From the NCBI GenBank assembly GCA_025458365.1, contig JALOSP010000063.1, forward strand, positions 1-14,217: a stretch of 14,217 nt of DNA, given 5' to 3'. Under the pieces are notes generated by a model. It was not told the DNA's origin. It saw only the letters and a list, made by a program, of their open reading frames with translations, and searched no databases. The DNA comes from Hyphomonadaceae bacterium (GTDB lineage: Bacteria; Pseudomonadota; Alphaproteobacteria; Caulobacterales; Aquidulcibacteraceae). The translations under genes and the position numbers were made by a program. This document shows positions 7,250 to 9,508 of this stretch, one piece after another (within the stretch, counting starts at the first letter, position 1; every line of letters starts with the position of its first letter).

Positions 7250-9508
7250 ATGTCCAACACACCGATCGCGCTCGAACAGCGCAATGCAGCACTGGAGGCG
7301 GCGTTTCCGCATCTGATCCGCGATGACAGCCCATCAAAGTCGGTCGGAGCGGCCACCACAGCCCAGGCCAAGTTTTCCAAGATCACGCATGCAGTGCCGA
7401 TGCTGTCGCTGGACAATGCGTTTTCGCGTGACGACGTGGCCGACTTCATCGGGCGGGCGCGCAGGTTTCTGGGGCTGGACGAGACCGCACCCCTGCCGCT
7501 GACCGCCGAGCCGAAGATTGACGGGCTGTCGCTCTCGCTGCGCTATGAAAAAGGCGTGCTGGTGCATGGCGCCACGCGTGGCGACGGGCGCGAAGGTGAG
7601 GATGTGACGGCCAATGCCCGCACGCTGGCCACCGTGCCGCACCGGCTGGCCGGGTCCGGCTGGCCCGATGTGATCGACGTGCGCGGCGAAGTCTATCTGC
7701 GCCATGCCGACTTTGCAGCCCTGAACGAGGCCCAAGCCCAGGCAGGCCTGCCCCCCTATGCCAACCCGCGCAATGCGGCGGCAGGATCGCTGCGCCAGCT
7801 TGATCCGGCGATCACCGCCCGGCGCCCGCTCAGCTTCTTTGCCTATGCCTGGGGCGAGGCCAGTGCGGCCTTTGCGGCAACCCAGATGGAGGCCGTGGCA
7901 CGGTTTGCCGATTGGGGCTTTGCCACCAACCCGGACATGGTGCTGTGCGCCGACACCGACGCGCTGATCGCCCACTATGACAGTCTGGCCCGGCGCCGGG
8001 CGGGTCTGGGCTATGACATCGACGGGGTGGTCTACAAGGTCAATGATCTTGCCTTGCAGGCACGCCTCGGCTTCGTCACCCGGTTTCCGCGCTGGGCGAT
8101 TGCCCACAAATTCCCGCCCGAACGGGCGCAGACGATCCTTGAAGCCATCGACATCCAGGTCGGCCGCACCGGCGCGCTGACCCCTGTGGCACGCCTGAAA
8201 CCTGTTACCGTTGGCGGCGTGGTGGTCTCCAACGCCACCTTGCACAATGAGGATTTCATCGCAGGGCGCGCACAGGACAAGGCGACGGGCGGGCCGGTGC
8301 GCGGCGGCAAGGACTTGCGGCCGGGCGATCTGGTCACGATCCAGCGTGCGGGCGACGTGATCCCGCAGATTGTCGATGTGGATGTGGGCGCACGCAGCCC
8401 AGACAGTGTGCCCTTTGCCTTCCCCACGATCTGCCCCTGCCCGCTGCAGACCGCCTGCAACCGCGACGAGGGTGAGGATGCTGCCGTGGTACGGCGCTGT
8501 TCCGGCGAGTTTGCCTGCCCGTTCCAGCGCTTGCGGCACCTGGAATTGTTCGTCTCGCGCAAGGCCTATGACATCGACGGACTGGGTCCGCGCCAGTTGC
8601 AGGACTTCTTCGACAGGGGGCTGGTGAAAGAACCTGCCGACATCTTCCGCCTGAAGGACCACCGCGACACGCTGCTGACGCTGGAAGGTTATGGCGAAAC
8701 CAGTGTGGACAATCTGCTGGCCGCCATCGAGGCCCGCCGCCAGATCAGCCTGGCCCGCTTCATCTTCGGCCTCGGCGTGCGCCATGTGGGCGAAACCACC
8801 GGCGGGGTGCTGGCCCGCACCCATGGCAGCTGGAGCGCGTTCAAGGCGGCGGTGGATGCGGCAGCGGCGGGAAGGCCCGGCCCTGACTATCTGCTGCTTG
8901 AGGCCCTGCATGGCTTGGGGCCCAAGGCATTGGGCATCCTGCTGGACCGCGTTGCGGCAGGCGGATTGCATGTTCAGGCTGACCTGTTTGCATCCACCGC
9001 AGACCTGCTGCCCGTGTCCGGCCTCGCCGACTTGCCCGCCCCGGCGCGACGGGCACTGGCCGACGCTTTTCCAGTGTGGAGCGACTTTGAAGCCACGGTG
9101 AAAGCCGCTGCCGCAAACCGCCCGGGAGATGCCTGGATCGGCTTTGCCGCCGCAGACGGGGTCGGCCCGGTGGCCGCCGATGCGCTGATCGACTTCTTCG
9201 CAGAGCCGCACAATGCAGACGCGGTCGCCCGACTCCTGGCCGAAGTCACACCGGTGGACGCTGTGGCCCCCAAGGCTGACAGCGCCGTGACCGGCAAGAC
9301 CGTGGTGTTCACCGGCAGCCTCGAAAAGATGACCCGCGATGAAGCCAAGGCCAAAGCGCTATCGCTCGGTGCCAAAGTCTCGGGCTCGGTCTCGGCCAAG
9401 ACCGATCTGGTGGTGGCAGGGCCAGGTGCGGGGTCAAAACTGGCCAAGGCCACCGAACTGGGCATCCGCGTGATCAGCGAGGATGAGTGGCTCGAACTGG
9501 CAGGCTGA
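7250..9508 (+). CDS. ligA: NAD+-dependent DNA ligase LigA, lacking the N-terminal Ia domain
   Basis: A 752-residue NAD+-dependent DNA ligase, the enzyme that seals nicks in replication and repair. Present: the adenylation motif AEPKIDG with catalytic Lys89, [22 protein letters not shown], the OB-fold, a zinc finger (CPCPL...[10 protein letters not shown]), helix-hairpin-helix repeats ([13 protein letters not shown]) and a C-terminal BRCT domain ([17 protein letters not shown]...). Missing: the Ia domain. Homology to other LigA proteins begins at about residue 6-7 ([17 protein letters not shown]). The residues equivalent to E. coli Tyr22, His23, Asp32, Tyr35 and Asp36, which bind the NMN half of NAD+, are absent or replaced. 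The preceding 90 bases hold a repeat pair, and no domain Ia coding was found there in any frame. No Shine-Dalgarno precedes 7250 or the in-frame ATG at 7217. It may be a damaged copy, a rearranged gene or an assembly join. The stop is 9 bases from that of the convergent efflux gene. Confidence 0.93.

Follow-up and report, generated by a model that had tools for sequence, protein, structure and literature searches.

The ligA gene in the window, meaning the whole 14,217-nucleotide stretch of DNA analysed here, which is the entire contig C170 of a draft genome (G000), encodes a LigA that lacks the first half of domain Ia. The missing piece is kept in every relative examined, and the deletion is probably an assembly or amplification artefact, or else a recent, unfixed null allele, rather than the form in which the lineage uses the gene. 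The features concerned are the following.

6126–7160, + strand: NAD-dependent epimerase/reductase-like gene (PF01370), the upstream neighbour of ligA
7162–7229, no strand assigned: palindromic dispersed repeat, about 68 bp long, in the spacer that separates this gene from ligA
7250–9508, + strand: ligA open reading frame of 752 aa without the first half of domain Ia (ATG at 7250, stop codon at 9506–9508)
7250–7267, + strand: residual N terminus, MSNTPI, which resembles some alphaproteobacterial LigA starts
7267–7268, + strand: junction, with LigA homology restarting at the Ala codon at 7268 (Ala-Leu-Glu-Gln-Arg-Asn), the residue after the YD of relatives
7367–8122, + strand: NTase (adenylation) domain, PF01653, complete (profile positions 2–253 of 253)
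7514–7516, + strand: codon of the nucleotidyl lysine, Lys89 of the 752-aa form, in KIDG (residues 89–92)
8129–8398, + strand: OB-fold domain, PF03120, profile match above cut-off
8756–8851, + strand: helix-hairpin-helix, PF12826, profile match above cut-off
9290–9499, + strand: BRCT domain, PF00533, profile match above cut-off

The missing segment was delimited by comparison with the closest LigA found among the best 120 of 8000 scored, a protein of 796 aa (P0002) from a 45.7 kb JGI metagenome contig, which shares 83% identity with the query across 99% of its length. The next homologue in the same set is 79% identical, and among contigs of named genomes an Aquidulcibacter MAG gives the top match, at 70% identity. 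The N terminus of P0002 reads MVSMKIA...DADYDALEQRN, with 48 residues ahead of the homologous Ala, while in the window LigA the six residues MSNTPI lead directly into ALEQRN; relatives have 36 or more residues at this place. A tblastn search of the window, on both strands, with the N-terminal 72 residues of P0002 matched residues 49–72 to positions 7268–7339 (E 2.7e-12), and residues 1–48 gave no significant match on either strand (next best E 1.7). A DAxYD motif was likewise not seen by eye in the three-frame translation of the + strand over approximately 7000–7330. Relative to P0002, about 42 codons are lost.

An earlier note on this DNA, made from the letters alone, had placed the start of homology just after the YD of Ia, with a short MSNTP segment in place of the domain, and tblastn and the alignments agree with it on both points. 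Its description of domain Ia as absent is correct for the first half of the domain including the YD; the helix that follows is still there. As read from the alignments, the lost piece takes in the first half of Ia and ends with the YD. In E. coli LigA the domain comprises residues 1–69, the helix after the YD included, and residues of its first half contact NMN.

The anatomy of the shortened LigA is certain. The protein scores 748 bits on NF005932 (cut-off 369; E 8e-225), matching from profile position 34, and 659 bits on TIGR00575 (cut-off 444), matching profile positions 29–652. The match to the solved E. coli LigA (2owo) begins at query residue 14 and E. coli residue 44. Four candidate zinc-finger cysteines (C395, C397, C417 and C423) are invariant in a 10-row clade alignment, and the C-x-C spacing of the first pair is common to the window LigA and its clade relatives, unlike E. 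coli. The remainder of the protein is intact as had been claimed, with complete NTase, OB-fold, helix-hairpin-helix and BRCT domains, and Lys89 aligns with the lysine of the E. coli KLDG motif, Lys115. This confirms the offset of about 26 residues given in the earlier note; the shift from E. coli is just 26 because of the longer N terminus of P0002 and of two gaps, each of 2 residues, in E. coli ahead of the lysine. An alternative in-frame ATG at 7217, upstream of that at 7250, would give a protein of 763 aa, and no clear Shine-Dalgarno sequence was seen by eye ahead of the ATG at 7250.

The conservation of Ia was followed in three samples: a set of 109 loci (L002–L110) in which a few genomes are represented twice; an alignment with 122 rows besides the window LigA, from which a filter left out 40 of the 109 loci and in which some genomes also occur twice; and a set of 61 genomes made up of the genome under study and 60 relatives, where the genus is represented by this genome alone. 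A D-x-x-[YF]-D motif stands ahead of the homologous residue at all 109 loci, and [YF]D immediately precedes that residue in 122 of the 122 other alignment rows. All 60 other genomes keep Ia, as reading of the sequence showed for 31 of them and a PF22745 hit next to that of LigA for 29. Another short-form LigA was found neither among the best 120 of 8000 scored nor at the 109 loci nor in the 60 other genomes, so that relatives fully active with the same short form, which the earlier note had named as speaking against its reading, do not occur in the material examined. A search of open-licence papers also returned no report of a natural LigA without Ia.

Note that a sequence without a PF22745 match need not lack Ia, since in six of the other 60 genomes the model overlooks a domain that is evident when the sequence is read. 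It missed seven of the 61 genomes in all, and the six besides the one under study (G004, G019, G021, G031, G033 and G048) have Ia when read; it also failed to report P0002. Within the best 120 of 8000 scored, the label is absent from the window LigA, from P0036, whose own Ia is divergent, and from P0055, a fragment that begins inside the NTase domain. As a separate observation, P0036 is a LigA of 817 aa with a divergent N-terminal domain, and the LigA at locus L016 has an unusual sequence around TDAEFD; these two may point to a further Ia type among Alphaproteobacteria.

The part of the protein that remains bears no sign of decay. At 177 near-invariant positions (conserved to 97% or more among the other sequences) the window LigA carries no change, and in the other 122 rows the number of such changes has a median of 1 and a maximum of 21, with at least one change in 73 rows and none in 49. 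A ligase long released from selection should have changed some of these positions, so either the loss is recent, or it is not real, or the remaining protein is in use. The loss, if real, would on this count be young.

By analogy with the E. coli enzyme, the shortened LigA should not react with NAD+, as the earlier note had expected, and it could bind DNA and catalyse steps 2 and 3, the sealing of pre-adenylated nicks. Sriskanda and Shuman reportedly found in 2002 that E. coli LigA requires Ia to react with NAD+ and not to seal pre-adenylated nicks.

An artefact or an unfixed allele is the likeliest explanation because the short form has a single occurrence, in a fragmentary draft (2.18 Mb in 421 contigs, 63.9% complete and 0.53% contaminated), because every relative examined keeps Ia and because the rest of the gene has not decayed. 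Since ligA is reported to be essential in bacteria, the lineage probably does not rely on the deleted form. Taken separately, an assembly or amplification artefact may well be the cause, at somewhat under even chances, and a recent, unfixed null allele has perhaps one chance in a handful. The recent rearrangement or assembly error suggested in the earlier note still offers the simplest reading. Against an artefact or unfixed allele, the deletion is in frame, as about one artefact in three would be by luck, and the absence of changes at the 177 positions is also compatible with a protein in use. The P0001 cluster has two member sequences listed, and an artefact would be unlikely if the second had been assembled independently and showed the same short form.

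As to how the deletion could have arisen, the gene probably derives from an ordinary alphaproteobacterial ligA by a single internal, in-frame deletion of about 42 codons, and the native start codon was likely retained. The suggestion that the start was kept and codons were lost internally is made because MSNTPI looks like other alphaproteobacterial LigA starts: MSxTPV starts (MSDTPV, MSETPV, MSQTPV) were noted at 5 of the 109 loci (L014, L059, L060, L071 and L109). It is a weak argument, however, since P0002 and P0003, the closest relatives, do not begin in this way.

The palindromic repeat upstream of ligA ends at 7229, 38 bp before the junction, and forms a hairpin with a minimum free energy of −40.9 kcal/mol (RNA parameters). 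It could be that so strong a hairpin favours a polymerase jump, whether in vivo or during amplification. Nine further near-full-length copies of the repeat are present on eight contigs (C8, C60, C140, C244, C250, C287, C335 and, with two copies, C337); the element is REP-like, with conserved arms and a variable loop, and half copies also occur in the genome. An insertion of the repeat in place of Ia was ruled out, as its copies stop at 7229 and the junction lies at 7267/7268. No repeat that would explain a misjoin was found, which counts against an artefact. A deletion between direct repeats is also unsupported: in relatives, the words that the two ends share average 4.9 bases, against 4.6 in shuffled sequences, in a test that covered 73 of the 109 loci and in which some start codons were guessed by script.

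The stop codon of the upstream gene and the ATG at 7250 are separated by 89 bp. On the other side of ligA, positions 9518–14170 of the − strand hold an efflux set, in which an outer membrane channel (closest to the NodT type) and an ABC ATPase (closest to the DevA type) were recognized by profile, and membrane-fusion-like and permease-like open reading frames by eye.

Of the kinds of second ligase that the earlier note had proposed to look for elsewhere in the genome, one was found: there is an ATP-dependent ligase, which looks ancestral, and no second ligA in the 64%-complete sequence. The ATP-dependent ligase lies on contig C188 (2030–3640), is intact (536 codons from stop to stop) and matches TIGR04120, 'cisplatin damage response', with E 5e-228. 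It gives rise to the reading that the deletion is real and fixed, that LigA has lost its reactivity with NAD+ and that the TIGR04120 enzyme carries out replicative sealing, which we regard as unlikely. Besides the intact gene itself, this reading draws on the distribution of PF01068 ligases: a profile search of the 61 genomes gave no match in G005 or in eight genomes of group g5, which are the closest by LigA among the 61. It also draws on the archaeon Haloferax volcanii, where, according to PMC1684257, the NAD+- and ATP-dependent ligases each suffice alone.

The probable history of the C188 ligase argues the other way. It shares 83 and 80% identity with its two best homologues, LigA 83 and 79% with its own two (the latter among the best 120 of 8000 scored), and all four come from JGI sources. 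We infer that the homologues of the two ligases come from the same organisms, in which case sister lineages would probably have both a C188-type ligase and a full LigA. Because these identities run in parallel and the two LigA homologues keep Ia, the C188 ligase was probably inherited and is not compensatory. Moreover, PF01068 ligases were detected in 32 of the 61 genomes including the one under study, and the 31 others, out of 60, all keep Ia. A review (PMC5052709) calls the ATP-dependent ligases of bacteria non-essential and not replicative, and describes them as additional to LigA, the essential one, not as standing in its place. The lack of decay in the rest of LigA is a further point against a take-over.

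By eye, the C188 ligase is flanked by a hydrolase-like open reading frame, to which Pfam assigned no family, and a glycosyltransferase-like one, with no helicase. A TIGR04121-like helicase, below the cut-off of that model, is located on C319 (2701–4218) and is cut by the contig end. Truncation of an Lhr-like helicase was considered as a sign of wider gene damage and rejected, the gene being cut by the end of its contig.

A complete second ligA might also lie in the missing third of the genome, with the copy in the window a damaged duplicate. A completeness of 63.9% leaves room for this, and in G000 recN (on C345) is followed by asd and not by ligA, while ligA follows recN in four of seven relatives (G004, G014, G023 and G033). 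In the remaining three, however, recN was not found beside ligA either (G005, G010 and G013), so the position of ligA argues neither way, and the lost recN neighbour was for the same reason rejected as proof of a rearrangement. The available sequence holds a single ligA match, and none of the 61 genomes has a second place that covers the NTase domain, the apparent case in G020 being one gene split in two frames. A hidden second copy is improbable.

It is more doubtful still that the window represents a natural lineage in which NAD+ recognition by LigA has been lost for good, the ATP-dependent ligase has become replicative and the short LigA persists, either bound to DNA as a factor or sealing nicks that were adenylated beforehand by another ligase. 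A short LigA that is itself functional, either with another adenylate donor or as a dedicated step-3 enzyme acting on pre-adenylated nicks, would fit the conservation of the near-invariant positions and of the remaining domains, as well as the nick sealing that Sriskanda and Shuman are said to have seen for E. coli LigA without Ia. It is known from one sequence only, with no like form among the best 120 of 8000 scored, and is very improbable. Finally, provision of Ia in trans or by a frameshift from upstream can practically be dismissed: no stand-alone or split Ia of the kind that the earlier note had allowed for was found in the six frames of the window, or in the incomplete genome using the N terminus of a close relative or PF22745, a model that is insensitive here.

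What the deletion means depends on whether it is real and fixed. If so, it would describe a bacterium without a working NAD+-dependent ligase, contrary to the statement of the review (PMC5052709) that the ATP-dependent ligases of bacteria accompany the essential NAD+ enzyme, and would matter for LigA as a target of antibacterials. Otherwise, as seems likelier, it is a caution that an essential part can go missing cleanly and in frame from the draft genome of an uncultured bacterium, and that family models still call the product LigA with scores above their cut-offs.

Set against the LigA family as modelled by NF005932 and TIGR00575, the window protein has in common the NTase domain with its KIDG lysine, the OB-fold, the helix-hairpin-helix and the BRCT domain, whereas the first half of Ia, which bears the D-A-x-Y-D motif, is absent. 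The same difference separates it from its closest relative, P0002, in which Ia is complete. E. coli LigB (NF005987), too, is related to LigA and has fewer domains. LigB is, however, without zinc finger and BRCT domain, whereas the window protein retains its BRCT domain and scores 115 bits against the LigB cut-off of 498. A further parallel is with the laboratory Ia-deletion mutants of E. coli LigA, which likewise lack the N-terminal part for NAD+ recognition and keep the rest, but were made by design; those of Sriskanda and Shuman (2002) were reportedly inactive with NAD+ and still sealed pre-adenylated nicks.
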